Notes under the pieces: generated by a model | Told to the model about the DNA's origin: nothing | What the model saw: the letters and a program-made list of their open reading frames with translations, nothing else | Database searches by the model: none | Shown: positions 1,795-35,357 of the stretch, piece by piece | How positions within the stretch are numbered: the stretch's first letter is position 1 | How the letters are laid out: each line of letters begins with the position of its first letter | DNA from: a virus | Strand: one strand, 5' to 3' | DNA: 37,487 bases | Virus record (IMG/VR): IMGVR_UViG_3300037189_000586 | Coordinates: 1 to 37,487 of that record | Program-made: the position numbers and the translations under genes

Positions 1795-4700
1795 TTATGC
1801 AGTTGGAAATAATGTTCTTGGCAATGCAGGTCTATCTGTGCCAATGTGTGTCATAACTGCAAGGCTAACTGACTGTGTAGTTCCAGTTATAGAAGTTAAG
1901 TTAGCTTGACTACCAGTTGCAATGGCTGCTGCACCAACAGACGCGGATACAGTCATCGAATATCCATCTAGTGTTTTAATATAGTAAGTAGTACCGCCTC
2001 CTACACTACCAAATCCGCCGCTAAAACTAATAGGCTGATTTGGATGCAATCTTGTTAGATCACCAGTAAAATAAATTATATAAGTGTCTGAACTTACTAG
2101 TGTAATGGTATAAGGATCAAACTGTACCGCTCTAGTTTCATATCGCGGAAACATTGTAAATCTAAAATCGTGTAAATGTCCGGTCCAACCAGTAACTACA
2201 GATTGTGTATAATCTGCCCCTATTGTAAAGTCAGCAGTAGCATAATCTAAATCTCCATTTTCAGTAGTTGGGCCTTGTCCGCCTGGATAAGTTCCAGTTC
2301 TAGTAGTTGGAAATGCATTGACATATATACCATTAATAAACCAGTAGAATATACCACCTTTACGCATCATACAAATGTAATCCATAGCTTTGCTAGTAAC
2401 TGTACTGACTAGATATGTGCTAGGATTATAGTCAAAATATCCTTGAGTATTAGTGCTAGCTAATCCTGTACCGCCACCAGAAGCTTGCCTAAATCTCCAG
2501 TAACCTGTGGGATTAATCTGTGCTGCCATGTTGTTTGCATAGAGCCAAAGCACATTACCTACGGAAGCATTAATAGCACGACCTCCTGCTGTAGTGTCCA
2601 TATGATTAACCCAACATTCGACAGTAAAATCTTGATATCGTGTATCTGGCCTGAATGCTTGATATTCTTGAGCTGTGAATATTATGTAGTCGGTCTGAAC
2701 AGTAGTATCATAATTCATAAATGTCATAGTAGAATTAGCACCATATCGCTTGGTTCTGTAGTTAGGTCTGCCAGCAGAGCCATAACTATAGTGCGGCCAT
2801 CTATGACATGCATCGGCAAATGGAAAATGATGATTAACTAACTGTACACTATACTGATCATAAGCCCAAAAAGCGGTAGGAATTGTATATGTTGTAGAAT
2901 CATTATTATATCTAGCTATATTGCTTATTCGGGCTGGGCCTGTTCTGCTGTCACTGGCAAGTCGATACGTCTGCCAAGTCTTCTGCCCAGGTGTTAGTGT
3001 TGTTGCAGTAGCAACTCTGTATCCATTAATAAACATGGCTATCTTATTAGTCCTAGTTGGATCCCACACTACAGCTATATGATTGAAGCAATGACTCTTC
3101 CAATAGCTAGTCGCATATCCTGTAGTATAAATTCTTTGAACACCGCTGTTATGTGCAGTCCAAAATTCAAATGTAACATCATTCCAACTATTGCTAGCAT
3201 TACTACGATCTCTGATAATCCTAAATCCTTCGTGACCTGCTGATGTAGCTGTATATAAGATTTGAATAGTTTCTGTCGGACTAGCAGGATTACTTATACT
3301 AGACCATATCCACATTTCCGCAGTCCATGCGCTGCTCAGTCTAGTTATAAAACTAAGTTCGTGATATACGCTGTCATTTTGTACAGGACCTGTACTATAC
3401 CATTCAGAACCGCTGCTAGTAGACCCGTATGCATGTGCATTATAGTCAAATGGAATGCCACTGTATGGACTCCAAGACTGTATATATGGATTCCAAGCAC
3501 TGGTGAAATTACCATCAGTTCGTCCGCCTGTATCTATATAATTATTAGCAGGACTAGCGTCTCTATAGGTCGGATATTGGGCTGACCATAAACAAACAGT
3601 ACTAGATGTAACTGGTAAAAATGTTGTAGGTACTTGAAAATATTCTGGATTAGATGAGCTAGTTCCCGGTCCAGACGCAGTATAAGAACCGTATGCTGCG
3701 GTTGTCTTACATACTCTAAAATCGCAGAAAGCGCCATTAAATCGTCTGCTATAGTCTGTACCTGAGTATTGATCGTTGCCTATGACAATTCTACTATTTT
3801 GTGGAGCAGCAAGACTTGCAGTAAATACAACTTCGCTACGCTTACGACCATTTACATAGAACGCTAGCATTCCATTGACTCGTTGTAGACAAATGTGTGT
3901 CCATACAAAGTGTCGAAGTAATGTGTAATTGTCGAGCAATATTATTCTACCAGCATACCAAACTTCAAGTTTACCTTGATAGTTCTGTCTAATAGCAAAT
4001 TGAGTATCTGTATAGCCAGATCTTAAAGACAGTAGATAATTATATGTGGTTGTAAAATATTGAAATTCGTTGAAATTTCTATTGTAACACCAAAATTCCA
4101 TACTAAAATCGCCAGTACCGAATGTAAAGTTAGTGCCGCTATCAACAATACTAATTTTATCTTGACTACTATCTCTATACATAAGTCCACTATGACCGTG
4201 GCGATGTGTAGGAGAACCTATTCCGGTACGCAATTCATTGTTTGCACGACGTGGAAATACATATCGTGTAGTTCCATAATCGATAAGATAATCAAAAATT
4301 CCAGCTGGTAAAGTTGCACCGTTATTGGCAGTAGTTCCAAACATCATCCAAGTGTTTGCATCTACGGTCATACTAGTATCTAAGAATGTAACAGCACCAC
4401 TACTAGGTTCTACAGTTGTACCAAATGGAGTACCTGGCGTATATCTTGCTGTTCCAGAAACTCTAAGCCCTGCATAATACATGTAAGAGTTAAACTGTGC
4501 ATTTCTGCTGTTAAGAATGATAGCGTAATCTGTGTTGTTATAGTTAGTGCTTACTGTACCGGTATATGCAACTGCACCATTTACCCACATACCAAATCCG
4601 CTGGCTAGTGTGTTAACTCTGGCAGCTGCCACATGATACCAAGCACCTTGTGTCATTGAATTATTAGGGCTTGAGTTAAGACTGGCGTTAACATCCGACC

Positions 4701-5988: not shown

Positions 5989-5991
5989 TGT

Positions 5992-6378: not shown

Positions 6379-6393
6379 GACATTTCCTAAACT

Positions 6394-6403: not shown

Positions 6404-9400
6404 TTAGTAACTTGGGAACAACGCGGTAGGTAATGCAAAGGTATCTGTTTGTGCATGACACATTGCACTTACTGTTTTATCTTGTGTTGTTGCTACAATC
6501 GATTGACCAGTAGTTGTACCTACCTGTACTGGAACTCCGCCTATAGTTGTAGCCACAGTTAAATTATTATCAAACACATTAGTTATGTAATATGTTGTAC
6601 TACTTACAATATTACCAAAGTTACTAGCAAAAGTAACAGGTTGAGTCATTACACACAGATTATTCAAACTAGTAGTTGTTGTTATAATTGCACCACTACT
6701 GCTTGACACAGTAAATGTGATAGGAGTAAATCGCTTGGCTCTAGTTTCATAACGTGCAATTGCACTTACACGGAAATCTTGTATAAATCCTGCCCAGCTA
6801 ATACCACTTTGACTGTAAGTATCATGAGCAATGTTTATAGTAGTAGTTCCTGGACTGCTGACATAGTCTGGATGACCTTGATCACCAGTTGTCTGCATAC
6901 CTGTTCCGAACATGATAAATGCTTCAATACCATTGATATAAAAATACCATTCGCCGCCTCGACGCATTAGTACTAAATGATCAAATGTTCCACTAGTAGT
7001 AGTACTTGCATAGTATGTGCTAGGATTGTAATCATATCCAGTACTATATGCAGAGTTACCGCTAAATGTTCCATTAGCTGGGTTAGTAGAGTTGCCGTTT
7101 AAAAATCTCCAATAGCCGCTGCTGTTAATCATAACAATAAGATTGTTACTATATTGCCACAATGCTCGACCTTGAGCACCGGTACCAGGTCCGCCAGCTG
7201 TGCTGTCCCAGTACATAGCCCAGCATTCCATAGTACAGTCGTTAATGCGGAAGTCCATTAAATAATTGTATTGACCCCAGTGCTGTGCTAAAATGCGTTC
7301 GCATAATAGGGAAGGATTCTTTTGGCCAAATTTCATACTAGCATTGCCAAATCGCTTGTATTTGTAACTTGGAAGTACTCCATATTGCATTACACCAACT
7401 GCTGCACCTGCTTTGTTAGCAAAAGGTTCATCTACATCAATCAATGAATAGGTATACTGATCGTAAGCCCATCGTGTAGTTGGCATTGTATAAGTGCCTG
7501 AATCGTTATTATATCGCGCAGTTGTACTAATACGTACTGGGCCTGTGCCTTGACCAGAGTGCTGCAGTCTGTAGGTATTCCACATTTTTTGCCCTTGTGT
7601 AAATGTACCACTAGTAGCAACACGGTATCCGTTAACGAATATAGCTAGCTTAGAACCTTTAGTATTATCCCAACATACAGCAATATGCCACCATGCATAG
7701 CCACTAGCGATATTACGCAGATAGTTACTGCTTGAATACATTCTCTGAACACCACTATTGTGAGCAGTCCACCATTCAAATGTAATATCACAATAGCTAG
7801 CACTGGTATTCGATTGATGAACTATGATACGCCACCCTTCGTGGCCGCCTGACGTAGCCGTATATAACGAGGCATAGTTATTACCTGGGCCTGGTGCACC
7901 AATCTGTGTCATATACACCCAGTGCCAGCATTCAATAGTCCATGGATTATGATTAGTTAATCGCGTTATCCAGCTGTAATCGGGGTATGTACTATCACCA
8001 CGCACTGGACCGTATGCATCCATTCCTCGAGCTGTATCTACAGCCTGTCCAAACATCTGCTTTGTTCTGTCCCAGTCTTGTATGCCTTGATATGGGCCAT
8101 AAGAAACTGAGTAAATTTCAAAACTGTATGGGTTAGCTGGATCATTAGGTCCACCTGGTTCTACACGTTGTTGTTGACCTGAAGCATCATAAAATCCGGA
8201 GTTTAATGCACTTATTAATAATGTACAATTACTGACAGCAGTTAACGGATTTCTAGGAACTTCTATATAGTTAGGATTATAGTTGCCGGATGCATATGGT
8301 GCAGAACCGTTAACTACCCGAATATCGGAAAATCCGGTAGTTGCTCCACTGTCAGTTCTATGATTAGAACTATAACAGTTACCAATATAGAATCTACCAG
8401 ACGGGCAAGTGATAGTTGTTGTATAAATGGTCTCTGCTCGTTTACGACCGTTGACATAAATTGCTAGATTACCGTTTACTCGTTGAACAAGAATGTGATT
8501 CCAAATATTTGAACCGGAAAAATCTTCCCAAGTTGCTATAATAATATTATTGTTTCCGTGCAGTTCATAACTTTTACGAAAACTTCTTCTTAACCATAAG
8601 CCTGCATCACTATAAGCGGCCTGTGTACACCAAAGTGTTCTAAATGTAGTATTATCCTGATCTAACCAGTGTGGCATGATCCACATTTCTACGCTAAAGT
8701 TATTAGTACTGAATGCAAAATTTGAACCATTCTGTGTAACTACTAACTTAGTATTAGTATCTCTGTTTGGAAATGCACTGTGGCCCGTTCTACTGTAAGG
8801 ATTGTAATTAGTTATAATCTCGCTACTATGTCTTACTGGGGCACACCCCGACTGACCTGCATCTCGATAGTGCGATCCTCCATTGGCTGGATCTTGCGTA
8901 CCAGTTGTTCCGATAAGATAGACGGTATTGGCATCTACAGCCATGCTACTGTCTTTAAATGTGGACAATTCAACGTTATATGGCGATCCGGAACCGCTGT
9001 AGCGACCAGTGTTACTAAGTCTTAAACCGCAAATATATCCATTCCAGTTAGAGTACTGATTATTTCTGCTATTGCCGATAACCATTGTCTCAGTTCCGGA
9101 ATAGTCAGTGCTGACTGTACCTTGATAAGTTAAGTTACCATTAACATAAATGTAAAACTGATTAGCGGCAGTACCTACTCTACTAGCAGCAATGTGATAC
9201 CACCCACCGAATCTAATAGGATTATTAGGGCTGCAATTAATTGCCTGCGAGGCATCGTCCCAACGAACATATCCGCTACTATCGACCCATAGACTCCACC
9301 CACTACCGCTGCTAGTATTACCACTACCTTTTCCAATAATTCCGTTATTCTGTCCCTGTTGCAATGAGCTAGTTGATCCGTACACCCAACATTCAACCGT

Positions 9401-12120: not shown

Positions 12121-15100
12121 TTATCGTTGCATAAAGAATCCCATAGCGACCGGTGCCCCGTCAATACCGCCTGTGAAATTCATCTTAGCTGTTACTTTTA
12201 TTTGTCCACCAGATGTAGTACTGATGGTATTACCTGCTACATATATAACACCTGCTGTTAACGTGTTAACATTCAATTGACTTTGACCGCCACCAATCTG
12301 CGATGTAATATAACTCTTAATTGCCTTTTGTGTTGGAACAATATTATCACTGTTAGCAGTAAAATACGGATCTGTTGAGAACTGTGTAATTACTGCACTG
12401 GCAACGCCAACACTAACACTACCAAGTTGCAAGCTCTGTAGTCCTGATAAGTTAAACGCACTAGCGTTCAATGTAGCAGTACCTGTAGCCTGTTGTACTC
12501 CAAATAAGTTACCAACGTTGAAGTTACCATCTTGGTCAGTACTTGTAAAGAATACTCGTCCACCGACATTTGCATAAGTCTGATTTGCAGTGATAGCGGT
12601 AGTTGTATCTACATTCGGATAGTTAGTTGTTACTTGATTACCAGTTCCAATATATAAGAAATCGTGACCTGTTAATCGAACTTGACTATATTTTAATCTT
12701 GTTGTAATTGTATCACCATGCGCTGGAGCATTTGCTACACTTAAACTTGGATTAATTTGGAATGTAGCTGTATAATTTCCTAAACTTCCTAAAAGATTTG
12801 TAACTGATACTAGTTTAAACCAAGTATTTGGAATACTAGCAAACTGCACATTTGCACCTGCAGTCGGCTGTGAATATAAACCAGATATTGATATAAACGT
12901 ACTTGGTTGATACAAATCTGAATAACCGTCACCGGATACACTAGCAACTGCAGCAGTATTAGCTGTTCCTCGATTACTAAATGTTGGATTAGCTAATGCG
13001 CCGACACCCATTCTAACTCTTGTTGATGCTGTTTTAACTTTGTTAGGATCAGTTTGAGTTATAATCGGGCCTGCTCTATAACTAGCTGTCAGCCCAGTTC
13101 CTGTTGATAATGAAACTGCTGTTGCACTTCCTGCAGTTGCAGATACTTTAAAACTTGTATTAGTAACGATAGTTGATCCAATAACATAATACGTAGTATT
13201 AGTAATTAAACCATATGAATCTAAACCAGTAAATTCAATTGGTTGAGAATCTGCTAAATTTCGTGTACTTGATGTTGTAATAACATTTGTACTGGTAGTA
13301 GTTGCTGTAATACTGCCGTAAGGATAACCAGAACCAGGTTCAATCATTCTGATTTCAGTAATTGCTCCAGATGCAGCTTTCATTCTACCTTGTGCAGTTG
13401 CTCCAGTAAATATGCTAGTTGCCGCTGTTCCACTAGTATTTGCTACACTTGCCCACATTGGATAATTGCTAATACTACCAAATACAATGCCTTTCCAGTT
13501 GATGCTTCCAGAAAGTGTTCTTAATGTCCAGTTAATTCCGTCTGGGCTAGTAGCACAGGTACTTGTGCCTTGGGCAATTGCTATGAACAGTCCTTGTCCA
13601 TATGCAACTCTTGTCCATGTTAAACTTGATGAAAGGATACTTGTTGTTGCGCCGCTACATGATGGAGCAGCAGTCCATGTTGCGCCTGCACCGTCGATAC
13701 TGTATGCAACAGCACCACTAGCAGCAAGAGCTACAAATCTTCCATTGCCGTAAGCAATGCTGGTCCAAGTTGTACTGGTAGGCATATTTCCACCTGCAGC
13801 CCAAACACCTGCGGTATATACTGCGGTAGTCTGAGATCCAGTTGCTACAGCAACAAATATACTGTTACCAAATGCAACACCGGACCATGTGCCTGCACCT
13901 AATGATGTAATTGCTGTAGTAGTCCAAGTATTACCATTAGCTGTAATTGATGCTGTTCCTGCACCGCCTACTGCCATCCAAACTGGACCGCCGCCTTGAA
14001 CACCGAATGTAATATCTGCATAAGTTCCTGCAGGTACGTTACCTGAACCTGTTGACCAACTACTTCCTAGGTTTGCCAGTGTTTGATATGATGCTGCTGC
14101 TCCGCCGCTGGCAGGAACAGCTATGAACTTTGCATTTGTATCTACAATAGTTACTGTAGGTTGCGATGTATAACCAGTTCCGCCGTTGTTGCCGACTGCA
14201 ATACTGGCAACACCATTATTACTTAATGTAGCTGTTGCTGTTGCTTGATTGCTAGATCCACCGCCTGACACGGTAACTGTAGGTGCAGTTGTGTAATTTT
14301 TACCATAAGTGTTAACAGTAATTGATGTAATGATATCGGTTCTTGCAGCCACAGTTGGTGCTACACCGTACGAGGAACCACCGACAGTTACAGTAACTTG
14401 TGTAATTGCACCGTTAAGAACAACGGCTGTTGCTGTGGCACCCGATCCACCGCTTACTGCTGTGAATGCGATTGACGGTGATGTTGTATAACCAGCACCG
14501 CCGTTAACAACTGTTACGCTAACAACTTGTCCTGCTGTTGCACCACTGCCTAATACTGCTGTGAGAACAGCACCACTTCCGCCTAAACCGCCAACAACTG
14601 CGGTTGCTGTTGCGCCTTCACCGCCGCCATATTGTATACCCATCCATGTAGTATTAGTTACTGCGCCTGCACTACCCCAAGATGTACCATTAGTACTGTA
14701 TGCGGTAACTGTACCGCTAGTATTAATAGCAACGTATGCACCAGCACCAAAAGTTACATCTGTATAAGCTGCACTTGGTACAGTTAATGCTGTACTAGTA
14801 AATCCTGGACCTGTATATGTAATACGTGGTTCAATTAAGTATGTTGTAGTTAAATCTAATGTAGCAGATATTGTAGTTCCAGGAACAACATGATCCCATC
14901 CAGCTGCATAGAATGTTACTGACTGAGCCGTAGTAGTTGTAATTGCAGTAGTTAACGCAGCACCACCACTAGTTGCAGATACATTAAATGTAGTTGCACT
15001 AGCAATTGCCTGAACATAATACACTACCCCTGCTGTTAATCCACCTACAGTGGTTGCTACATAGAATGGCATAGTTACATACAATGTTGCAGTGCTTGCT

Positions 15101-18100
15101 ACTGTCACTGTACTTGGGCTACCTTGTGTTGTTGCTGTAATTGTTAATGTAGTAAATGATTCTTTATAAACTGTAGCTACTTTACTACCGTTGCTATATG
15201 TTAGTATTGCAGCAGTCTGTCCTACACCTGTACCAGCTGTAATGTTGATTCGCATGCCAACATAAGCTGTACTTAATGATGTATCTGCAGCACTAACTGT
15301 AATACTCACTCTGTCACCAGTCTGTGCTGTACTCGCAGCGGTAACATAACTTGTACCGCCTACGCTAGTTGTAGTAGCATCACCGTTGTCAGTAAGTCTT
15401 GTTTCAAACACTGCATTATCACGGAATTCATCGCCGATGGCCGCGGCATTGTAGCCCGTGCCACTGATAGTATATGCAGCGTTGGAGTAATTAGTACCTG
15501 CATTTTGATACTCAAGTCTTAATACTTTATTAGAGCCATCTGTGAATACGTTGGTTATGTATGCCTGACTTGCATGATTATTTAATGTTGCATAGATCGG
15601 TGTTTCTGTACTATCAACACCTTCGGCGATAACACCATATGTACCATATGAGCTATTACCATTAGTAGCACGAATACGTCCACCTAATTCTGCTAGATAT
15701 CCTGCGTAATTATAGTACGAGAATACAGAAACAGCTTCTACTAATGAGTTGTGACCAGTACACCATATACCGATACCATCACTGATAATTGTTGTATAGT
15801 CATTAGATACGATACTTCTGTTTCCACCGGCGTGTAATGCACCGTCTATCTTTTGTCCTATACAACCTGTTCCAAATACAGAAAGATTTTGAGCATAAGG
15901 ACTTCTTGCGTAAATCCATGCATTGCTATCGTTTGGTCCAAATCCTGGATCTAAGCTTGCGTAAGCACCAGCTGTTGGACGCTTTGTACCATAACTGTTT
16001 GCAGCACTCAATGATCCTGTTAATCCACTTAAGGTCATATTTCTTAAACCAGTAGCATTTCTTAACAAGAACATGTTGCTTAACAATGATCCGTTTATAT
16101 CGTTTAAATATAAATCTGCAGTACGTAGACTTCTATAGTTACCTGGATACTGCATGTCGTAAACAATAGCATCGACCCAGTCTCGTATGTACTGTCGACA
16201 GGTTGTTCCACTAAATGAATAACGTACAGTTAGACTTGGACTTGAAACATTAGATGTAATTGTTACAGCAGTCGTTGATCCTTGCGTTGCAGTTACTGAA
16301 AATGCTGTACTTGCTAAATTTGCTGCTAACACGTAGTAAGTTGTACCTGTTGTAATACCGCCAGCACTAGTACCTGTGAATACTACAGGATCGCCTGCAA
16401 CAAAATTATGTGCAGAACTAGTGTTAATTAAATTATTTGTTATCGCTAAACTACTAACAGTACCACCATAACTTTGAGTGATATAAGCAGATGCTTCATA
16501 TGCTAAAAATTCTTTATTAGCACGAATAATTTCGGCACCTTTAGTTGTACTTAATGATGTTGAATAAGTTAATGTACCTGCATACTGAACATTTTGTCCA
16601 GATATAAATTGTGTACCGTTAGCATAATAAATGATGTCGTCAATAATTGAACTAGCTCTAGCTACTGCTCCTACACCTGCAATTGGTTTGATCTTATTCA
16701 ATAAGAAATTAATCATACCTAATTCAGCAGTTTTTTGACTTGAAATTACAGTCTGTGCAGAAGTATTAGTAAATCCTACAGAGTATGCATAGTATCTTCT
16801 TGCTGCGATTGCACTGGCAGCATTACTGCTATAGGTCAAATCGTTTGCAATTGCAGTTGCAATATATCCAACGTCTCTGCTACAGGTAGCGGAGTTAAAT
16901 GACAAACTTGGATAATATTTTTGAACCCAAACAACACCATCGGACTGAATTTCTGACAAACGTTCTACTACTGCAGCGTATGCCGTATTAAGTAATGTAG
17001 TTGCTCCAGCAGAATAAAATGCAACTGCTGTATCGGCTGTACCGTTGTTAATCCAGTTGACAACATTCGTAACACGATCTTGTGCAAAACTTGCTGCGTT
17101 TGCACTACCAGCTGTACCGCCTGTTACTTGTGTATATGTAACCTGTCCTGCAGGTGCTGACACAGAGCCTTTTGTAATAACAGTGCTAATTTCGGATTTT
17201 AATTCATTGTACATTGCAGCCATTGCTGTTTTACACTGCGCTGCAGTTTGACTTGTGACTTGAATTGTGAATACTGTATAAGAATAATATTCACTACCTG
17301 CAATGTTACTTTGGCTGTTACCACCGTAAATCATGTCATAAACAATACCGTCTAAAACACGACCAACCATTGCTTTTACATTAGTTGATGTCAATGCTGT
17401 TCTAATAGTGCTGTAGTTATTTGATAGATACTGATCACAGTTAGCTTGTAAGAAATTATAGTTTTGTATAACTTGTTGTGCGCCATATCCATAGCCAGTT
17501 GATACACCAGTAGCATTACCAGTAGTTGTGTAAGCAGTGTTTGTTACACTAGATGTGTTATAACCAACAGGCCAAGGCATTACTAAACTTGGAACTGAAC
17601 CAAGTCCACTGTTAACAATGTTGTACATTACTGTTGAATTATTAACAGTACTAGCAACTGCGCTGTAGCCATAAGTTACAGTTAGTGTACCGCCAGTTTG
17701 ACTCGTTAACGTTACTGCTGTACTAGCATCAGCAACTGGTGTTGCTGTCGTAATGCTAAATGTTCCGCTACTTATTATAGTTTTAACATAGTAAGTAGTT
17801 CCCATAGTTATACCAGCACCCGTTGCCATTGTGCCAGTGCCAGAAAATACTACAGGCATACCAACAGTCAATGCTGAAGTGTCTGCAACTGTAATATATC
17901 CAGGGGATCCTGCTGTTACTGCAGATGCACTAAAACTTGGTGATGCATAACTTCCAGTATCACCTGCTGCTAGTGTTTTAATCTGTGTTTGCGTATTACC
18001 GGTTGTTGGAGTAACTGTTGAGTTACTAATTAAATTAGTTAATACAGATTGAATGCGTGTTAACGAGGCCACAGTCTTTGCTTTATCATTAACTAATGCA

Positions 18101-20877: not shown

Positions 20878-20900
20878 TTTATTTTATTCCTTTGATTTAA

Positions 20901-20907
20901 TATTTAC
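20901..20907 (-). promoter_or_regulatory. Candidate late promoter (GTAAATA) for the 2918-aa gene
   Basis: GTAAATA on the minus strand is in the 51-base gap between the two giant genes, 23 bases before the ATG at 20877. An A-rich stretch precedes it. No terminator hairpin is visible in the gap, so read-through from the 2626-aa gene is also likely. Confidence 0.45.
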
Positions 20908-20928
20908 CGTAAATCACTTTTTTTGTTT

Positions 20929-23900
20929 TTAACGATGGAACCAGTGCTTAGTAAAATATAGCCACGATGATTCATTACCGTCTACTCCTCCAGCTGCTCC
21001 TTCAATTGACACTTTATTGGCCATTTTTACCGAACTTCCTGGAATTCCTTGTGTAACTGTGCTGGTTATAAGATTCTGACCGCCTAATACCACAGTACCT
21101 GCGCTTACTTGATTAGTCACCACATTCGATCCGCCTTGACTTAATCTATTAGCAATATATGTTCTAATAGCCTTTTGAGTGACAATAACACTGTCACTAT
21201 TAGCAATTAAGGTAGGATCAGTGCTAATTTGGCTGATAACTACACTTTGACTACCTACTGCAATACCGCCTAATGTTAACGATGTTAAACCAGTTAAACC
21301 AAATTGGCTGGCACTTAGTGTTACAATACCCGTAGCCTGTTGTACTCCAAAGAAACTACCAACTTTGAAGTTACCATCTTGGTCTGTACTAGTGTAAAAC
21401 ACTCGTCCATAATTTATTTCAACCGTTTGATTCTGTGCTTGCAAACTAGTGTCAGCTGGAACATCTGGGTAGCCTGATTGGTATTGATCGCCATACCCTA
21501 TGTTTAAGAAATCATGTCCAGTTAAGCGAACTTGACTATACTTCTGTCTAATTACTACACTAATAGCATTTGTAGGAGCTAATGCTGTACTTAATGCTGG
21601 ATTCAAACCAATTATAGCGGTAACATTCGGTGCTGTACTGTTATTTAAAACAGTAACACTAGTAATTTTATAAATGTTACTGTTACCATTAATAACTAAA
21701 TCACTACCAACGGATGGCTGGTACGTCATATTTGATAATATTAAGTTATAGGAATTTTGATAATCTTCGGAATAGCCAGCACCTGAAGTTGTTATAGTTG
21801 TAGTGTTTACATTATAACCTACACCTCTGCTTAAGAATATTGGATTTGCTAATGAGCCGTTGCCAATAAGCTGAGATGTCACTGCACTCTGTGTAGAGTT
21901 TGTATCATATAATGTTAGAGTTGGGGCTGAAGTATAACCTGATCCTGGTTCCCATGAGGTAAATCCTGTTACAATACCACTTGTTATTGTTGGTCTAGAT
22001 TTAGGTTTTGCTCCTGCACTGATGTTAGTTACATAATTGTTGCCACCTACTGTAACAAATAATCCAGTATATGAATCGTGACCTAACGTGTATGTCATTA
22101 CAGGAGTTAAAATTGCTGTAGTTCCTGATAAACTATCAGTTACAACAATAGTTGGAGTTTCTGTATATCCAACTCCAGCACCTGTTAATGAGAATCCGCT
22201 AACCTGACCGCTTGGATTAATAGTTACCGTAGCCGTTGCCTGTTGTGTTACAAAAGGACCTCCTCCTGTAAATCTCAATGTAGGTGCTACACTATAGCCC
22301 GATCCTGAACTGGTTATAGTTATACCTGTTACAGTTCCATAGTTAACTGCAGTGTAACCAAACGCCATTGCAGTATAAGTAAACCCAGTTACAGATCTTT
22401 GTTTCCATACAATACCGTCTTCGGTGGTATATGCTAAAATATTTGCATCACGGATTGCAACAAATACACCTTGCCCGTATTCGATGCTAGTTGCCCTGAC
22501 AACATACGGTGATTGGACCCATGTAATTCCATCTAAGCTATATGCAGGTTTTGCATTTGCACCTGATGATACAGCAACAAATCTGCCATTACCATAAGAC
22601 ACACTAGACCAAGTTGTGCTAGATGGTAAACCATTACTAGCGACCCACGTTTGTCCATCTGTACTATATGCCGATGTTGTTCCACCTGATGCAATAGCTA
22701 CAAAAGTACCTGCGCCAAACGCTAAACTAGTCCAAGTTGTGCTAGATGGTAAACTAGCAGCAGACCAAGATTGACCAAAGTTAGTGCTGTATGCAGCTTT
22801 ATTACTTGACGCAGCATTATCGATTACAACAAACACACCATTACCATATTCTACACTGCCCCAAGTTGCTTGACTAGGTAGTGTAGTTTGTCTCCAACTA
22901 TCTGTTGGTAATGTTGTATAAAGAGCGGTTGAATTTCCTACACCACCACTACTTACTAATACCCAATAACCATTGCCGTAGGCTATTCCAGTCCATGTTG
23001 CCACTACTGGAAGAGTGATTGACGACCATGTTTCTGCATCTGTTGAACCAACCAAGTAGCCTATGCCACTCGGAACACCAATCCAATAACCGTCTCCATA
23101 TCCAATAGCTGTCATCCCAGCACCTTGTGTTGGAAAACTAGGCAGTGTCTGTGAGAACGAAGGAGCAGAATAAATCGGTCTTGGTTCAACGTAATACGTT
23201 GTGGTAGTGTCTAATAACGTAGCAGCAGTGGTTCCTGGAGTAATATGATCCCACCCTGATACAACCATCTGCATACTATCGCCGGATGTCCCTACTGAAA
23301 CTGCCGTTGATCCGCCTGCCGTTGATGCTAGTGTAATTGTGTTTGTTCCACCTAATGTAACAGTCTTAATATAATAAGTAGTGCCTGCCGTAATACCGGA
23401 TATGTAGGATGAATTAAACAATGCTGTAGCAGATCCTTTCGATGACACTAACAACGTCTTATTAGGAGTTGTAGTAACAGTCATCGATCCACTGCCTGTA
23501 GTTAATGTCAAATCACTACCAGTAGTTTCGACATTTAGATAACCAGTTGCTGTTGATAACGTAGCTACTGTACCTGTAGTAACTGTTTTTCCTGTCAATG
23601 TTCCTGAAGTTTGTGTTGTTAAAGTTACATCGGAACCTGTAGTGTTTACGGTTACTATAGAACTAGTATTTGCAGTGACTAATGGTAAATCACCGCCGCC
23701 TGATGTAGCACTAATCTTGATTGTAGTCGGAGTTAGTATAGCAGAAATATAGTATACAGTTCCCGAAACAATGTTACCAACAGTTTCACCGTAGAATATA
23801 ATAGGATTGTTTAGTACAAAATTCAAGGAAGACAGGACAGTGATTATATTAGTACCAGAAGTTGTACCAGTCATTTGTGTTGATAAAATACTTGTACTAA

Positions 23901-26900
23901 CTGTAAATGTTGATCCTGAAGGAATCTTACTTATGTAATACTGTGTAGTTGTTGACAATCCACTACCTACTAATCCTGTACCACTAAATGTGATAGGATA
24001 CAAAGGAACTAAACTAGTAGTTGTACTAGTAATATAGTTTGTTGTACTAGCGGTTGCAGTACAAGTAATATTTAATATGGCGCTACTTGTTGCAACTTGG
24101 AATTGGGTAGAGTTAGGAATGTTAGACACATAATAAATTGTATCTACAGATAGACCTCCCATTGTAATTCCTACAAACTTCACAGGATTACCTATAACAA
24201 ATCCGCTAGTTGATGTACATGTAATTAAGTTTGCACCTACTAGTGTTGCTGAGGCTATTGTCTGATTTAATGTATTACTAATTGTAATATGTGAACTGTC
24301 AGGAATCAAACTAATATAATATTTTGTGTTTAATTGTAAGCCGCCTATCGCAGTACCTGTAAAAATAATCGGAAATAACGAAACTATGCCAGCTGTCGTT
24401 GTTACCGTTAACTGATTACTTACGGCAGTTGTTGCCGAAGCTGTAGTAGTTGTTGTACCTGACGATATTGTAAAATAATGACTATCCTTTATGTCATTAA
24501 CATAATAAATTGTTCCTGCGCTAGTTCCGCCTAACGCTGCACCTGTAAACTGAATTTGCATGTTAGGTTTCATGTATGTCGTAGAATCTGCATACATGTA
24601 GCTAGTCCCGGAAACTACATTCATTATCATACTGCCAGTGCCTGTGACTAAAAATACAGGAGTTCCGTATATCGATGTCGAAACTTGGAAAGTATTTCCT
24701 GATATGTTTGTAATATAATAGGTAAAATTGTTAATAACACCGCCATACAGTCCGCTATATTCGAACGTGACTGGCATGTTTTGATACAACTGAGTGATAT
24801 TAGTAGTTGTCATTGTGTTAGTCTGACCACCCGTAACCGAAGTAATTACAACGGTTGCTTTGGAAGTAGACGTAACTGTTGCTGAATATACTGTTGGATA
24901 GAATGATACCGGCATGTCTGTATACAACAGATTAGTATCAGCCGAACTATCTAAATATAATTCATTTGTTGACGATGTGCTACCAGTAATTTTTACTGGA
25001 TCATATGATTCTTTAGCGACGTAAGCATATCCATTCACATCATCGTAATAGGAAATTAGTCCGTATTGACCTACTCCTGTACCACTAGTTAAAAATACTC
25101 GCAAACCTAAATATGTGCTACTTGCAGCCGTTTCCGATCCGGCCAACGTGACATACGATGTGTTTCCGCCTTGTGCATTGTTGCTGCTAGTTTTGTAACC
25201 GGCACCACCAACTTGATCTCCTGTACCTGGATCAATAATTCTACTTTGATAAACTGCACCTGATCTAATTTCATTAGCAACACTTGATACACCGCTACCT
25301 GATCCTGTTACTAGAAAGTCTGCGTATGCGCTGTATTTTTGAGTATCAGTGCGTAGATAAAACTTAGGTGTTGTTTGATACGGATTATGTTCAATTTGTG
25401 GACCATACACATAGTTATATGCAGATACTGCAGTTGCATATCCTGCAACATAGACGTAGAAGGTACATAAATTATTAAGACCTGATACATCGTAAGTGGT
25501 GAAGTAAAGTCTATTCCAACTGTTATTACCTTTAATAATCCCAACATTTAACGGAGTTATTGCACCGGTTAAGGTAGTTGTATAAGTTAAAGCACTTAGA
25601 TTGTAATCAATTCTTGTTGTGTTAGAACTTACTCCGCTGAATACAGTTGACAAAGAAACTGTTGATGCTGTACCGGCTTTAACATAAACACTAAATGTGT
25701 ATTTTTGTTTAACTGTGTTTGGAACTGTCCCTGTTGCACTAGCAACTGTAATTGCTCCTGAAACTGCAGTATCTACGTTAATTGTAATATCATGCAGACC
25801 TAATAATCCGCCAACTGTATTACCACTAATTAATATCTTATCGCCAGTATTGTAACCTGAGCCGCCAACTGGACTTCCTGTAATTGCACTAACTACATAC
25901 CCTGCTGCTGTTACAGAGATAGTAAACGTAGCACCATTGCCTGTACCAATAATATTAGAACCACTACGCCCTGTATAAACGTTACCTGAAGGAGTAATGT
26001 TGATTGCTTGGTAAATTGATCCAGAGTTGGCTGCTACATTAGTTTTGGTCAATTGCCATGCATATAGTCCACCAAATGGATCTGTACTATTTTGTAAGTA
26101 TGTTACATATGAATCGTCGGCCCAACCAGTTGATGTTAAATTGTTACTGTTCTTTAATAGATTAAGTACTTGCTGATTGTAAAACTTACCGTTGTTAGAA
26201 AACTGATATTTTAAAACTTGAGCACTTAGCCCTTGTACTGTTTGTAAAGTTGGAGTAACACCGTAGTATCTATTATACGTCACAGCAGTAATTGGTGTTT
26301 CGTTAACGTCAAATCCTTCGGCGATAACACCATATGTACCATATGAGCTGTTACCATTAGTAGCACGAATACGTCCACCATTTTCTGCAAAATAACCAGC
26401 ATAACCAAAGTAACTGAAAATACTAACAAGTTCAGTTAATGCACCGGTATTAGTACACCATGCACCGATACCATCATTTATAATATGAGTATAGTCGTTA
26501 GCAACAATAGATTTATTACCGCCGTTATGTAAACTACCATCAATTTTTAATCCTGTGCATCCTTGACCAAATGAACTTACATTTTGAATGTAAGGAGATT
26601 TATAAGAGATCCATACAGTAGTATCAGCTGGTCCTGTTCCTGGATCTAAACTTACAAATGCACCGCCAGTTGGACGTTGTGTGCCTAACGAGTTAGTAGT
26701 TCCTAACGTGCCTAGTAATCCAGACATTGTCATGTTGCGAATGCCGCTGCCATTTCTCACATAAAACATATTTGAAATAGCATCGCCGCCTATGACTTGA
26801 ATAAGTCCACTGCCGCCGAGTAATGTCGATGCTGAACCATTTGGGGTTGTACTAATTTTAAATTCTGTATTTGAATCGATACTGACAACATAGTAGGTCG

Positions 26901-28809
26901 TTCCTACAGCTATATTACTAGTTTCAAATGGAACTAATGTCGAAGAAACATTATTATTTGAAAGTATAAACTGTATAGGTGCATTTAAGTACATGCCTGC
27001 AGTAGTGTCGCAGGTAAATTTACTTGTGGCAGCATCGGACGAAAAAACAAAAGTATTAATTACTCTACTAGGCCTGACTACAGTACTTCTTAATTCATCT
27101 CCTACTAATGCAATACTTGCTGGTACAGTTATAGGAAGTTCTTCGTTGTATGTTCCTGTTTTGATAAAAATAGTAGCAGGTGCTACAGCATTTGCACAAG
27201 CATACTTGATAGTACGCCATGGTTGATCCCATGTAACGCCAAATGTTGGAGTATCTGTTCCTGTTAACGCTACATAATAGACATTAGGACTAGTTAAGAT
27301 TCTTTGCCAAGAAGGAGTAGTACCGACAGATTGTAATTGATATGTTTCAGAACCAATTGCTAATGATGTTCTATTATCTGAACCTGTGGTAGAATTATAA
27401 AATAAATCACCCTGACTGCGCAGAGCATTTTGTCTTGCATGTAACGTATAAACAGTCCAGTAATTATGACTAGTATCTAAATCAGGCGCAGTTGGTGCGG
27501 ATGAAGTATGTGGGGCTATGCACATGTAACTGGCATTTTGCCATGTAACTACATCACCAGCTGTATATGTTGTATTTGTTAGCCAGAAATTTTTATGATA
27601 AGCGCCAGGTACTAACAATGACCAGTATGTAGAATTAATTCCTGAAAATGCAATAGTTTGACCATCAGTTAATGCACCGTCAGGCGCTTTGTCTAATATT
27701 ACTGTATCGGTACTGACAAGTTGCGATATTTTTTGTCCGCCGGCAAAATTAGTACTGCCGCCGGCTATAAACATACCTGCTGCTAAACTTGTATTATTAG
27801 AAAGTTTGATAGTTGTTCCGCTACTACCGGTTGCAGTGTATGTTTTTGTTATTGTAGTATTATTCGAAGGATTCTGTCCGGTATTATTTGCAATAGCTCT
27901 AAACAATCTTCCATTATAATATACGGTATCGCCTACTCTATAAGAATAACTTTGACTCCAATTTGAGGTTATAACATTGAAACCAGGTAGTACTACAGTC
28001 CAGTTAGCAGAATTATAATCGGGATCAAATCCTAAATTATTATTAATGCTGCTTTTCCAAATGTTACCACCGTATGAAACTAAATCATCTAATTGATATT
28101 TTGTAGAAATACTCCATGCACCTTCAAATTGTTGAGCAGGAAGCCAAAGGCTCCATTTTGCTGTTTCGAAAGTACCAATCGACGTATGATGTGTTGTACA
28201 AATATATAAATCTGAGTTTAATTTTACAACATCATTTGCTTTATATCTTGTGCCGCTGCTAACAAAGTCGCCTTTGTAATCGATACCGTCATAAATTGAA
28301 GTCCATTTACCGATGTCTGTTTCAAGCCCGTAAGTAATGCTAACATCGCTAGTATGAGTAGTATTACATTGATATACAATACCGCCATATCTTACTACAT
28401 CGCCCACGCCGTACGCATGATTAGTTTGCCAGCTAGCATGCCATTTATATCCTTCAACTAGTAATGTAAATTTTGCTACATCTATTACAGTTGAACTAAC
28501 ATGATAGGTATTACAGACATAAACAGCTCCACCGTATTTTACAACATTACCTGGATTATATTGCTGCCCAACATCCCAATCATACTTGTATTGTGTGCCT
28601 GCAATGATTTTTTCCCAGTAGTAGAAGTCTACTGCATCAATAGTACCTATAGTAATTAAATCAGTACTAAACACACCGGATGTATGTGCAAATTGACATA
28701 CAAACGCTTGTCCTTCAAATTCTACAACTGTGTCAATAGCATAGAAAGTGTCGGTTGCCCATGATCCAACATAATTATATCTTAAACTGCTTATTCTAAA
28801 CTCAGCCAT
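20929..28809 (-). CDS. Giant multidomain virion adhesin, 2626 aa
   Basis: Paralogue of the 2918-aa protein, and like it probably a receptor-binding or baseplate protein. Domains in order: seven CBM5/12-like repeats (about 8-455; for example DVVRYGGIVYQCNTTHTS); a fibre-type linker; a beta-helix-like region from GTDTPTFGVTWDQPWRTIKY through IFIKTGTYNEELPITVPAS and GDELRSTVVRPS to AEGFDVNETP (about 510-835), interrupted by one TTYY module; a carbohydrate-binding-like module (about 880-1155) beginning LLKNSNNLTSTGW and with YTFSVYVKAGT and YGPQIEHN; a tandem array of about seven TTYY(V/I) modules (about 1320-1850); a beta-propeller (about 1905-2155); GSGYxxxPT repeats (about 2156-2300); and the conserved C-terminal region (YSQVRLTGHDFL, DQDGNFKVGSFFGVQQATG, GGVDG). 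The ATG at 28809 has an AGGAAA site and follows the 120-aa gene by 15 bases. Confidence 0.8.
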   Translation of the reverse strand: MAEFRISSLRYNYVGSWATDTFYAIDTVVEFEGQAFVCQFAHTSGVFSTDLITIGTIDAVDFYYWEKIIAGTQYKYDWDVGQQYNPGNVVKYGGAVYVCNTYHVSSTVIDVAKFTLLVEGYKWHASWQTNHAYGVGDVVRYGGIVYQCNTTHTSDVSITYGLETDIGKWTSIYDGIDYKGDFVSSGTRYKANDVVKLNSDLYICTTHHTSIGTFETAKWSLWLPAQQFEGAWSISTKYQLDDLVSYGGNIWKSSINNNLGFDPDYNSANWTVVLPGFNVITSNWSQSYSYRVGDTVYYNGRLFRAIANNTGQNPSNNTTITKTYTATGSSGTTIKLSNNTSLAAGMFIAGGSTNFAGGQKISQLVSTDTVILDKAPDGALTDGQTIAFSGINSTYWSLLVPGAYHKNFWLTNTTYTAGDVVTWQNASYMCIAPHTSSAPTAPDLDTSHNYWTVYTLHARQNALRSQGDLFYNSTTGSDNRTSLAIGSETYQLQSVGTTPSWQRILTSPNVYYVALTGTDTPTFGVTWDQPWRTIKYACANAVAPATIFIKTGTYNEELPITVPASIALVGDELRSTVVRPSRVINTFVFSSDAATSKFTCDTTAGMYLNAPIQFILSNNNVSSTLVPFETSNIAVGTTYYVVSIDSNTEFKISTTPNGSASTLLGGSGLIQVIGGDAISNMFYVRNGSGIRNMTMSGLLGTLGTTNSLGTQRPTGGAFVSLDPGTGPADTTVWISYKSPYIQNVSSFGQGCTGLKIDGSLHNGGNKSIVANDYTHIINDGIGAWCTNTGALTELVSIFSYFGYAGYFAENGGRIRATNGNSSYGTYGVIAEGFDVNETPITAVTYNRYYGVTPTLQTVQGLSAQVLKYQFSNNGKFYNQQVLNLLKNSNNLTSTGWADDSYVTYLQNSTDPFGGLYAWQLTKTNVAANSGSIYQAINITPSGNVYTGRSGSNIIGTGNGATFTISVTAAGYVVSAITGSPVGGSGYNTGDKILISGNTVGGLLGLHDITINVDTAVSGAITVASATGTVPNTVKQKYTFSVYVKAGTASTVSLSTVFSGVSSNTTRIDYNLSALTYTTTLTGAITPLNVGIIKGNNSWNRLYFTTYDVSGLNNLCTFYVYVAGYATAVSAYNYVYGPQIEHNPYQTTPKFYLRTDTQKYSAYADFLVTGSGSGVSSVANEIRSGAVYQSRIIDPGTGDQVGGAGYKTSSNNAQGGNTSYVTLAGSETAASSTYLGLRVFLTSGTGVGQYGLISYYDDVNGYAYVAKESYDPVKITGSTSSTNELYLDSSADTNLLYTDMPVSFYPTVYSATVTSTSKATVVITSVTGGQTNTMTTTNITQLYQNMPVTFEYSGLYGGVINNFTYYITNISGNTFQVSTSIYGTPVFLVTGTGSMIMNVVSGTSYMYADSTTYMKPNMQIQFTGAALGGTSAGTIYYVNDIKDSHYFTISSGTTTTTASATTAVSNQLTVTTTAGIVSLFPIIFTGTAIGGLQLNTKYYISLIPDSSHITISNTLNQTIASATLVGANLITCTSTSGFVIGNPVKFVGITMGGLSVDTIYYVSNIPNSTQFQVATSSAILNITCTATASTTNYITSTTTSLVPLYPITFSGTGLVGSGLSTTTQYYISKIPSGSTFTVSTSILSTQMTGTTSGTNIITVLSSLNFVLNNPIIFYGETVGNIVSGTVYYISAILTPTTIKISATSGGGDLPLVTANTSSIVTVNTTGSDVTLTTQTSGTLTGKTVTTGTVATLSTATGYLNVETTGSDLTLTTGSGSMTVTTTPNKTLLVSSKGSATALFNSSYISGITAGTTYYIKTVTLGGTNTITLASTAGGSTAVSVGTSGDSMQMVVSGWDHITPGTTAATLLDTTTTYYVEPRPIYSAPSFSQTLPSFPTQGAGMTAIGYGDGYWIGVPSGIGYLVGSTDAETWSSITLPVVATWTGIAYGNGYWVLVSSGGVGNSTALYTTLPTDSWRQTTLPSQATWGSVEYGNGVFVVIDNAASSNKAAYSTNFGQSWSAASLPSSTTWTSLAFGAGTFVAIASGGTTSAYSTDGQTWVASNGLPSSTTWSSVSYGNGRFVAVSSGANAKPAYSLDGITWVQSPYVVRATSIEYGQGVFVAIRDANILAYTTEDGIVWKQRSVTGFTYTAMAFGYTAVNYGTVTGITITSSGSGYSVAPTLRFTGGGPFVTQQATATVTINPSGQVSGFSLTGAGVGYTETPTIVVTDSLSGTTAILTPVMTYTLGHDSYTGLFVTVGGNNYVTNISAGAKPKSRPTITSGIVTGFTSWEPGSGYTSAPTLTLYDTNSTQSAVTSQLIGNGSLANPIFLSRGVGYNVNTTTITTSGAGYSEDYQNSYNLILSNMTYQPSVGSDLVINGNSNIYKITSVTVLNNSTAPNVTAIIGLNPALSTALAPTNAISVVIRQKYSQVRLTGHDFLNIGYGDQYQSGYPDVPADTSLQAQNQTVEINYGRVFYTSTDQDGNFKVGSFFGVQQATGIVTLSASQFGLTGLTSLTLGGIAVGSQSVVISQISTDPTLIANSDSVIVTQKAIRTYIANRLSQGGSNVVTNQVSAGTVVLGGQNLITSTVTQGIPGSSVKMANKVSIEGAAGGVDGNESSWLYFTKHWFHR
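23260..24840 (-). repeat. Tandem array of TTYY(V/I) modules inside the 2626-aa protein
   Basis: About seven head-to-tail copies of a 55-75-residue unit. Each has a (M/N)P(V/I)xF(S/T/V)G segment, a G-G-(L/I) turn, a core TxYY(I/V), then (S/N)-(T/S)-x-(F/I)-x-(V/I)-(S/A) and a Thr-rich strand. Adjacent copies differ widely, so this is an old or fast-diverging expansion rather than a recent one. Near the end (about 23480-23660) is a shorter Thr-rich repeat with TTGSD(V/L)TLTT twice. Confidence 0.65.
26315..26379. repeat. 65-bp near-identical segment, copy in the 2626-aa gene
   Basis: Partner of 15620-15684, with 64 of 65 bases identical and in the same orientation and reading frame within the paralogous giant genes. 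Confidence 0.8.
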
Positions 28810-29196: not shown

Positions 29197-29781
29197 TTAT
29201 ACGATTTCTACATAACTTACAACAGCGTCTAAACCACCGGACCCGTAACTATATACATTAATTGTAGTGCTAGTTCCTAATACCATACGCTCACCACCAT
29301 TGACTAATTTTAATACTTGATTCTGAGGTATAATCATTTTATATGCATAATAAGCAGATGTATTTGAATTTGCATTATCAACTAGTTGTACGTTAACTAC
29401 TTGTAAATCATCTGTACAGTTAACTAGTGCTAGACCTACAACTGTTATCTTTGCATTACTTGGACTAGTAAGTAAACTAGTAGTTTTGTTTATAATTCCT
29501 GTCATGTTGCCTCCATTGCCTGTTCCAACATTAAACGGAGGACCGCCTAGACTAGTACTTATAGTAATTTCAGTAGAACTTTCAACAGTAATAATGTAAT
29601 AAGTTCCTGCAATTAAATTTCCAATAGTTGTGCCCAGTACAATAAGTTCCATTCCTACAGCTAAACCTGTAGTAGAATCAACAGTTACAATATTTCCTAC
29701 TTGATTAGTATCTGTAATTGTAATTTCTAAACCAGTAGCACCGATATTTGAACTTAATGCATTTTTAAACGTAGTTGCCAT
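29197..29781 (-). CDS. Small virion protein with an inserted TTYY-type module
   Basis: 194 residues. The first about 15 residues (MATTFKNALSSNIG) and the part after residue 105 (ITVVGLALVNCTDDLQVVNV, then MIIPQNQVLKLVNGGERMVL and AVVSYVEIV) read as one small beta-rich protein like those common in marine T4-like phages. Residues 22-98 between them are a TTYY-family module (VDSTTGLAVGMELIVLG, GTYYIITVESSTEITIST, GGPPF). The module therefore appears to be inserted in the N-terminal part of a pre-existing about 120-aa protein. The gene starts 4 bases after the 500-aa gene, with its AGGA site overlapping that gene's end. Function beyond a structural role is unknown. Confidence 0.65.
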   Translation of the reverse strand: MATTFKNALSSNIGATGLEITITDTNQVGNIVTVDSTTGLAVGMELIVLGTTIGNLIAGTYYIITVESSTEITISTSLGGPPFNVGTGNGGNMTGIINKTTSLLTSPSNAKITVVGLALVNCTDDLQVVNVQLVDNANSNTSAYYAYKMIIPQNQVLKLVNGGERMVLGTSTTINVYSYGSGGLDAVVSYVEIV

Positions 29782-31390: not shown

Positions 31391-31397
31391 TATTTAT
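31391..31397 (-). promoter_or_regulatory. Late promoter (ATAAATA) for the 500-aa gene
   Basis: The minus strand reads TGATAAATAAT just after the 533-aa gene and about 102 bases before the ATG at 31288. It matches the late-promoter core seen at 6394 and 10984. Confidence 0.55.
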
Positions 31398-31419
31398 CAG
31401 AATCGGAATTTACTGTTGA

Positions 31420-33021: not shown

Positions 33022-33030
33022 TGACTGTCC

Positions 33031-34142: not shown

Positions 34143-34151
34143 TTTACGTCC

Positions 34152-35357
34152 TTAAAATAATACACTAAACAGCAATGCTCTATTTTTTGAAATTAATTCG
34201 TCGCTAGTAATTAGATTAGCAAAAAATATTCCGGTCTTTCCTGTTCCTGTATAAGTCCCTGTATTACTAGCAGACCAAATTTTTGTTGTGCCACTGATAC
34301 CTGCACCACCTGCATTATCATCTAATCTTAAAACAGAGTTTACTTCTACATCACCGCTAGTACTAGTTAAAATTAGATTATTGCTTGTAGAATTTTTTAC
34401 AGTATTTCCAAATATATTTACATTGTCAACATCTAATCCTGCCGATGTTATAGTTGCTCTTTGAGTTTCGCTAATATAAAATGTAGTACTAGTATTGTTA
34501 GTAGTTACTCTTGATTTTATTGTACCATTTATATAATAGATCGTAGATACGTCTGCTATACCAGTAGCGTAACTACCAGCAGCAACATATTGTTCAGTCC
34601 ATTGTTTTGTAACAAGTGTATTTGGATCTACAATATTAGCTGCATATGATGAGGAATTTGTAATTCTTACAACACTAGCAGAATCTTGCATATCTAATAA
34701 CAGATCACTTCCACCAGAAGTTATAGTTTCTAATTCTAATCCGCTTAGTACTTCGTCAGCTGTTTTAAATACCCATGAACCATATACTTCTATATAGTTA
34801 ACAGTTGCAGTCATCGATCCGCTGCCATTAGAAACATGGAATACAGAACCGCCTAAAATTGTGCTTACTTGTATTTTACTATTGACGCTGTCTATACTTT
34901 TAACATAATAAGTTGCACCATTGACTACACTACCGAAAACTGTTCCCGTAAACACTATAGTACTACCTGCACTGATTGCAGCAACACTGTTTAGTGTAAT
35001 CCAATAACCAGTAGCAGTTGTTGCAGTAGCAGTATATGCAGTGGTAGCTAAATGTGTATGAGGTATAGTTTCTTTAAAAAATAACTGGGCGTTAGAATAA
35101 TCACCGCGATCGACTTCTATACCCGATTGATAGTTTAAAATTGCACTTATACCGGGACCAATCTGTCCATTATTAAGTGTGAATATATTATTGCTAATAT
35201 TGATATTAGTAGATTCAACATTTGTTGACACACCTTTAACATCAAGATTACCAAGAATATAAACTGTTCCACCATAGTGCAGATCCAACGTGATGTTGCC
35301 ATCAGGCTGGACCTGTATTCTATAGTTGTCGTCGTCGACTTTTAAAACTCTTGTCAT
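34152..35357 (-). CDS. Fibre-like structural protein with inserted TTYY module
   Basis: 401 residues. The N-terminal 100 residues (VLKVDDDNYRIQVQPDGNIT, GNLDVKGVSTNVESTNINIS, SGIEVDRGDYSNAQLFFKE) recall a conserved structural protein of marine T4-like phages. Residues about 100-195 are a TTYY(V) module (GSTIVFTGTVFG, GATYYVKSIDS, GGSVFHVSNGSGSM). After it the conserved protein resumes with GSWVFKTADEVLSGLE. The C-terminal half has a VTKQWTEQYVA segment and shaft-like repeats (NIFGNTVKNSTSNNLILTST). The module appears inserted between FFKETIPH and WVFKT. No Shine-Dalgarno sequence is obvious before the ATG at 35357, which lies 6 bases after the upstream stop. ATG is followed by TRVLKVDDD, the expected N-terminus for the family as remembered. 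Confidence 0.65.
   Translation of the reverse strand: MTRVLKVDDDNYRIQVQPDGNITLDLHYGGTVYILGNLDVKGVSTNVESTNINISNNIFTLNNGQIGPGISAILNYQSGIEVDRGDYSNAQLFFKETIPHTHLATTAYTATATTATGYWITLNSVAAISAGSTIVFTGTVFGSVVNGATYYVKSIDSVNSKIQVSTILGGSVFHVSNGSGSMTATVNYIEVYGSWVFKTADEVLSGLELETITSGGSDLLLDMQDSASVVRITNSSSYAANIVDPNTLVTKQWTEQYVAAGSYATGIADVSTIYYINGTIKSRVTTNNTSTTFYISETQRATITSAGLDVDNVNIFGNTVKNSTSNNLILTSTSGDVEVNSVLRLDDNAGGAGISGTTKIWSASNTGTYTGTGKTGIFFANLITSDELISKNRALLFSVLF

Follow-up and report, generated by a model that had tools for sequence, protein, structure and literature searches.

A recurrent TTYY(V/I) beta-module as a probable plug-in barrel of adhesin proteins in a T4-like phage

The adhesin genes of the IMG/VR virus record IMGVR_UViG_3300037189_000586 raise the question of how one small beta-rich module with a TTYY(V/I) core came to reside in six different proteins of a single phage. 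The analysed stretch of 37,487 bases (the window) is a T4-like structural region, in which a run of fibre-like proteins is encoded on the minus strand between the end of a major head protein gene (phrog_138) and a gene for a tail sheath or sheath-stabiliser-like protein (phrog_11196, phrog_227). Its open reading frames (ORFs) agree with those stated in a previous reading made from the letters alone (the sequence-only reading). The proteins of 2918 and 2626 amino acids (aa) gave matches to the tail-fibre family phrog_9851 and to CBM5/12 units, and LamG domain matches were obtained for the 1382- and 1397-aa proteins. IMG/VR also contains a record of 141,855 base pairs (bp) of the same phage.

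The module is a plug-in domain of considerable age that has been passed on mainly by vertical descent, with occasional gain, loss and tandem expansion. The explanation as a whole, namely a plug-in barrel of the E1-FCCH or endosialidase-barrel type residing in adhesin loops of a clade of T4-like phages, appears reasonably probable to us.

Module copies in six proteins

A profile hidden Markov model (HMM) seeded with 14 hand-picked copies detected 18 significant copies of 60-90 residues with the TTYY(V/I) core in six proteins of the window: the 2918-aa protein carries six of them and the 2626-aa protein eight, and a single copy is present in each of the 401-, 194-, 1382- and 1397-aa proteins (the last four are referred to as p401, p194, p1382 and p1397). 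Both the total of about 18 and the counts per protein had been given by the sequence-only reading. The positions are listed below with the supporting evidence in brackets, together with one weak partial copy.

1873..2115, minus strand: module of the 1397-aa LamG protein, residues 1292-1372, near the C-terminus (HMM, leave-one-out)
6482..6724, minus strand: module of the 1382-aa LamG protein, residues 1277-1357, at a site shared with the 1397-aa paralogue (HMM, leave-one-out)
13075..13320, minus strand: module of the 2918-aa fibre, residues 2520-2601, filled in 48/48 of its group (HMM)
14902..15150, minus strand: module of the 2918-aa fibre, residues 1910-1992, filled in 47/48 of its group (HMM)
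16216..16467, minus strand: module of the 2918-aa fibre, residues 1471-1554, filled in 47/48 of its group (HMM)
17668..17931, minus strand: module of the 2918-aa fibre, residues 983-1070, sporadic, 2/24 (HMM)
18625..18885, minus strand: module of the 2918-aa fibre, residues 665-751, filled in 47/47 of its group (HMM)
19702..19953, minus strand: module of the 2918-aa fibre, residues 309-392, within a CBM5/12-type unit, sporadic, 16/47 (HMM)
23257..23517, minus strand: tandem run copy 7 of the 2626-aa fibre, residues 1765-1851 (HMM, leave-one-out, model)
23638..23883, minus strand: tandem run copy 6 of the 2626-aa fibre, residues 1643-1724 (HMM, leave-one-out, model)
23860..24072, minus strand: tandem run copy 5 of the 2626-aa fibre, residues 1580-1650 (HMM, leave-one-out, model)
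24076..24264, minus strand: tandem run copy 4 of the 2626-aa fibre, residues 1516-1578 (HMM, leave-one-out, model)
24241..24456, minus strand: tandem run copy 3 of the 2626-aa fibre, residues 1452-1523 (HMM, leave-one-out, model)
24427..24627, minus strand: tandem run copy 2 of the 2626-aa fibre, residues 1395-1461 (HMM, leave-one-out, model)
24610..24852, minus strand: tandem run copy 1 of the 2626-aa fibre, residues 1320-1400 (HMM, leave-one-out, model)
24862..24996, minus strand: weak partial copy preceding the tandem run, residues 1272-1316, sub-threshold with E 0.014 and 0.093 in two rounds
26788..27057, minus strand: module of the 2626-aa fibre, residues 585-674, flanked by two conserved stretches of beta-helix-like appearance as judged by eye (HMM)
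29488..29727, minus strand: module of the 194-aa protein, residues 19-98, in a loop without insert in 33/38 family members
34797..35039, minus strand: module of the 401-aa protein, residues 107-187, at a site that is empty in the six other relatives compared

When a copy was left out, a profile built from the remaining 17 still found it, and this held for all 18 (E <= 1.3e-5, Z=1000; 21.0-56.3 bits). The maximum among 200 shuffles per copy was 8.6 bits, and none of 380 shuffled proteins reached 20 bits, the highest score being 12.3. Judged by these sequence comparisons the TTYY(V/I) copies form one family, the members of which have diverged to a median pairwise identity of 26% within the window (closest pair 40%). 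Among 633 distinct aligned copies from the window and the related loci fetched for comparison, the first Tyr column of the core holds tyrosine in 99%, and the second holds tyrosine in 88%, phenylalanine in 7% and tryptophan in 5%, which to rounding leaves it aromatic throughout. The outline proposed by the sequence-only reading was borne out.

Twelve of the 18 copies were compared with sequence libraries, yielding nothing significant in Pfam (best E 0.086) and nothing convincing in NCBIfam (best E 0.007 with one member) or among the PDB chain sequences (best E 0.1). Only weak matches were obtained in PHROGs, the best of them (E 2.5e-5, 3/12 members) to a family without a name. Ig-like Pfam families matched neither these 12 copies nor any of 15 whole proteins including all six module carriers. 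The profile describes a component of adhesins that goes unrecognised in the Pfam and NCBIfam libraries searched.

Filled and empty sites in the host proteins

The p194 family comprises 38 distinct members including that of the window, of which 27 are free of any insert (counts that exclude the 80 best-scoring of 346 further relatives, those 80 favouring insert-free members). Its N-terminal loop carries the TTYY module in two members, those of the window and of the fetched locus L051, and in three (L056, L067 and L070) a different insert, for which no sequence similarity to the module could be detected; a third insert kind occupies another loop in six. L097, L098 and L102 entered this set through a p194-seeded search, the other loci having been chosen by the 2918-aa protein. 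A profile search of genome contigs with the p194-family alignment returned no relative.

In p401 the module fills residues 107-187, where five of five other relatives are empty. The p401 relative of L188, which belongs to the phage of L051, is likewise empty at this position and carries a module near 259-338 (HMM envelope 231-338), where p401 and its five relatives are contiguous. The modules of the two proteins are identical at 26 of 78 positions.

A third case can be followed down to the DNA. In a CBM5/12 unit the module stands directly before the last conserved Trp in L061, L062, L071 and L081, and the same site is empty in L022, L056, L063 and L068 with a flank identity of 66-77%. The DNA alignment reveals a clean junction, and any target duplication there is limited to about a codon. 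Host homologues with and without the module at the same point thus exist, as is characteristic of domain mosaicism. The case for insertion rests on these hand-checked pairs, since an automatic count of empty sites (358 of 366 arrays) is a loose one that admits paralogous repeats and poor alignments, 270 of the 358 best flank identities falling into the 30-49% bins.

Further hosts were detected beyond the six proteins. A 19th copy is located in a 443-aa protein of the same phage, which is encoded outside the window in the 141,855-bp record, and others in a giant 5190-aa ORF and in a 623-aa protein that combines Mtd_N with pectate-lyase-like domains (L191:433-2301). In another phage, a diversity-generating retroelement acts on Mtd as its target. 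The module-free relatives of p194 and p401, the empty site at the DNA level, the differing site in the p401 family and the pectate-lyase-like and other hosts all sustain the earlier suggestion of a cassette that can be inserted between or within unrelated domains.

Predicted fold and possible role

AlphaFold predicted six strands for the p194 copy with a predicted local distance difference test score (pLDDT) of 90.6 when given 12 window copies as input. The seven-copy tandem run of the 2626-aa protein was modelled from an alignment that included 31 relatives, with a pLDDT of 81 and a predicted template modelling score of 0.67. A similar fold is predicted for copies of these two proteins, both models resembling the same solved barrels: the FCCH domain of ubiquitin E1 enzymes, phage tail-tube domains and, to a lesser degree, the glycan-binding barrel of phage endosialidases.

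According to VIA-align, which re-aligns candidates supplied by Foldseek, the p194 copy is similar to the FCWL1 head-tail protein (Z 7.4, 73 aligned residues, 2.7 A), the FCCH domain of UBA6 (Z 7.2, 70 aligned, 2.4 A), the P22 coat protein (Z 7.1), the phi92 endosialidase (Z 6.7) and the T1 tail tube (Z 6.7). Tandem copy 1 was matched to the Mystique tail tube (Z 8.5) and to UBA6 (Z 8.3), with 74 residues aligned in each case, and the region of tandem copy 6 to S. pombe Uba1 (Z 8.1). By hand count E1 enzymes accounted for 32 (p194 copy) and 39 (tandem run) among the 50 matches listed for each model. In a viral structure library three matches to parts of two proteins from uncultured Caudovirales phages passed E 0.001.

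The module therefore seems to adopt a fold with precedent, similar to that of FCCH and endosialidase barrels. FCCH is an inserted domain within its own host E1 enzyme, and the likeness concerns a comparable small beta-barrel with best Z values of 7.2 (70 aligned) and 8.3 (74 aligned) that lie near background. However, the PF16190 profile of this domain has no match in the window and exceeded its cut-off in none of 11 related records, three of which contain sub-threshold matches (best E 0.0086), and a shared function is not expected. The endosialidase barrels of phi92, K1F and NF reach Z 5.3-6.7 with the p194 model, and phi92 reaches Z 7.3 with the tandem model in a match that spans more than one copy. 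In contrast to the 18 copies in six proteins, these barrels as matched occur once in one protein type, and the PDB chain search already mentioned gave no significant sequence match. Z values of 6.7-8.5 with the models were reached by the FCCH-like domains of the T1, FCWL1 and Mystique tail-tube and head-tail proteins and by a portion of the P22 coat protein. These also differ from the module in that each match is confined to one stretch of one protein and lacks a sequence match.

Ig-like and similar small domains are optional beta-domains dispersed over unrelated phage virion proteins, from which the module is set apart by the missing Ig family matches in the 12 copies scanned. Domain mosaicism of phage proteins has been treated by Smug et al. 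2023 (PMC10684548); the available sections of that paper are concerned mainly with terminal and enzymatic domains and contain no description of a plug-in barrel for which loop sockets are shared.

Where adjacent copies overlap, the tandem model has single strands of 5-10 residues (126-135, 189-197, 255-259 and 377-386, assigned by DSSP only), and for this reason one strand appears to serve two copies. Most neighbouring copies are thus predicted to be bridged by one strand at a spacing of about 57-64 residues, the junction between copies 4 and 5 being of low confidence.

We propose that the module is an independently folding all-beta barrel of about 80 residues which would have been plugged over evolution into loops at the surface of many adhesion proteins of the virion. 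It may have entered them in rare events of ordinary recombination between phage genes, without bringing along an element of its own, and would afterwards have been subject to vertical inheritance, tandem duplication and loss. Strand-bridged tandem runs would presumably form a stiff rod. The barrel could act as an additional spacer that also binds glycans weakly, providing longer fibres and more avidity, with the near-invariant aromatic pair as a candidate for ligand stacking or packing. Glycan binding or fibre spacing would be the likeliest function, and a self-contained barrel in adhesin loops beside CBM5/12, LamG and beta-helix-like parts, sometimes lined up as a rod, is what one would expect of an accessory unit for contact or spacing.

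Where function is concerned, the endosialidase likeness is the single lead, and it is an analogy. The region of the K1F/NF endosialidases matched by the p194 model (residues 425-506, Z 5.3-5.7) includes S460, S468 and G504, which the available part of PMC12632334 places in the polysialic-acid-binding barrel of the K1F tailspike, and it is this overlap that hints at a glycan as ligand.

Barrels that just lengthen or stiffen the fibres without any binding seem to us a serious possibility, albeit a somewhat doubtful one. The bridging strands of the modelled tandem runs and the variation in tandem copy number from four to seven would both suit a length-setting role. However, a single copy inserted into a protein of about 110 aa or into a CBM5/12 unit brings no evident gain in length, and the conservation of the aromatic pair over 633 distinct copies speaks against a mere spacer, though packing could account for it.

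History of the sites and distribution among phages

Occupancy of the sites was counted in ORFs of at least 2000 aa, non-redundant at 90% identity. In the 2918-aa group (48 members) the sites at 665, 1471, 1910 and 2520 are filled in 47/47, 47/48, 47/48 and 48/48 members, and sporadic sites in 16/47, 2/24 and 32/40. Site A0 is filled in 4/50, a count that includes misgrouped ORFs of the 2626-aa type. The tandem run is found in 42/42 members of the 2626-aa group with four to seven copies. Of the 507 copies placed in a tree, 489 belong to main sites, and for 471 of these the nearest neighbour occupies the same site of a different genome, compared to a mean of 95 and a maximum of 123 in 200 label shuffles, and the nearest neighbour lies within the same locus for only three of the 507.

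An integral element, that is, an inherited structural part of the fibres whose sporadic cases represent losses, would be in accordance with the fixed or nearly fixed 2918-aa sites, with the tandem run in every 2626-aa member and with the same-site neighbours in the tree. Nevertheless, this reading is already weakened by the p401 and p194 cases and appears unlikely. The 27 insert-free members of the p194 family, the two unrelated insert kinds in that family, one of them at the same loop, and the two p401 relatives with the module at different sites are difficult to reconcile with it, as are the other, dissimilar host proteins and the five named isolate genomes without a copy at E <= 0.001.

It is very improbable that the module is an actively mobile intragenic cassette which is now spreading within the genome by a dedicated mechanism or by gene conversion. 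The number of hosts within a single genome, with 19 copies counted for the 141,855-bp record, would agree with such activity, and so would the copy of the 623-aa protein, whose nearest copies (tree distance 0.91-0.98) belong to one fibre site, the closest of them lying in its own genome (parent-node support 0.93). However, the low identity among the window copies and the rarity of same-locus neighbours speak against it. Taking furthermore into account 13 of the 18 copies and the one empty site at the DNA level, no mobile-element signature in the form of boundary repeats or target duplication was found: the boundary words of these 13 copies were no longer than the control (mean 5.9 versus 6.2), and no duplication beyond about a codon was seen at the best DNA-level site. 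The mobility claimed by the sequence-only reading hence stands as gain and loss at loops over history, whereas its active form is contradicted by the site-faithful neighbours, by several fixed sites and by boundary repeats that do not rise above control.

Chance resemblance among Thr/Ser/Gly-rich beta sequences, in which the locus abounds, deserves practically no credence, as it is refuted by the leave-one-out and shuffle results and opposed by the AlphaFold results as well.

Several results also weigh against the plug-in barrel explanation itself. For neither model did Foldseek yield a PDB match at E <= 0.001, the VIA Z values of 7-8.5 are close to the background stated by the tool for models without clear relatives, and EF-Tu scores nearby with Z 7.3 for the tandem model. 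At the p194 loop one insertion is indistinguishable from two, because the modules of the two filled members are identical at only 30 of 80 positions and are not mutual nearest neighbours in the tree. A module-free relative was not found for p1382 (p1397 was not searched on its own), and the module could be integral at the four 2918-aa sites with complete or almost complete occupancy.

A whole-record search detected the module in seven of 12 records, all of them from IMG/VR and one of them of this phage, with 11-22 copies each. In the same search none of the five isolates P-SSM2, Mosig EXVC030M, S-CAM3, S-SSM7 and S-CAM1 had a copy at E <= 0.001. A broader profile applied in a local scan of parts of the five isolates gave one marginal match of 14.5 bits to a 469-aa ORF of S-CAM3, which lacks the TTYY core. 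The fibre orthologues of the five isolates comprise 1092-1482 aa, and those of P-SSM2, Mosig, S-CAM3 and S-CAM1 have other sequence at the place of the module 585-674 of the 2626-aa protein. Module searches of 50,697 named phage records returned, at E 1, only Cyanophage S-TIM66, whose tail fibre has one copy (29.2 bits, E 3.4e-11 in a one-sequence search). Named phages also gave no match at E 1e-3 to relatives of the p1382 C-terminus, p401 or p194. The remark in the sequence-only reading that other marine T4-like phages possess similar sequences therefore holds weakly, through S-TIM66 and against the five isolates. No paper describing the TTYY module was found in the accessible portion of the open-licence literature.

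The carrier phages are known mostly from metagenomes, and natural pairs of one protein with and without the module render the re-tooling of host attachment by phages directly testable. If certain loops do act as sockets, alignments would reveal the loop positions that tolerate whole domains.

Other insert kinds were recorded in the fetched set. The second kind (motif SITVSG..GYNGTYTVT..TVTY; L056:1596-2147, L067:2937-3488, L070:1318-1890) occupies the same p194 loop as the TTYY module and amounts to 49 copies in 34 ORFs. The third kind (motif TGTGIPA.T.I..F) was observed at L018:1791-2345, L020:1865-2419 and L050:2250-2804 and in L097, L098 and L102; an insert at 318-402 in the CBM5/12 unit of the 2626-aa protein was considered as a member of it and dropped (E 1.4). 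A short repeat family (G.GY..GD.I.I..), seen at residues 434-484 of the 2918-aa and 959-1013 of the 2626-aa protein, has 166 copies in 132 ORFs, and the fibre orthologues of P-SSM2 (L103) and S-SSM7 (L106) contain a repeated insert (HSL..S..I.I....TFTC, HTYPRP), of which three copies in two ORFs were detected. Profile comparison of the module with the second, third and fifth insert kinds indicated no relation, the best probability being 19% (fifth kind, though at E 0.0013).

We tentatively consider a socket system, in which a few adhesin loops would accept several sequence-unrelated beta-modules that are swapped between proteins and phages as contact pads, the TTYY barrel in addition polymerising by strand sharing to give rods whose length can be adjusted.

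The 2918- and 2626-aa fibres (window 12121-28809) are paralogues, and several related loci have both types adjacent. Between two conserved stretches the 2918-aa fibre has about 660 residues where the 2626-aa fibre has its module 585-674. A 149-aa ORF at 1335-1784 of the window resembles a Nudix hydrolase as judged by eye only. Positions 1760-1794, between two converging genes, form a near-palindrome with 86% self-match to the other strand, which perhaps serves as a two-way terminator.

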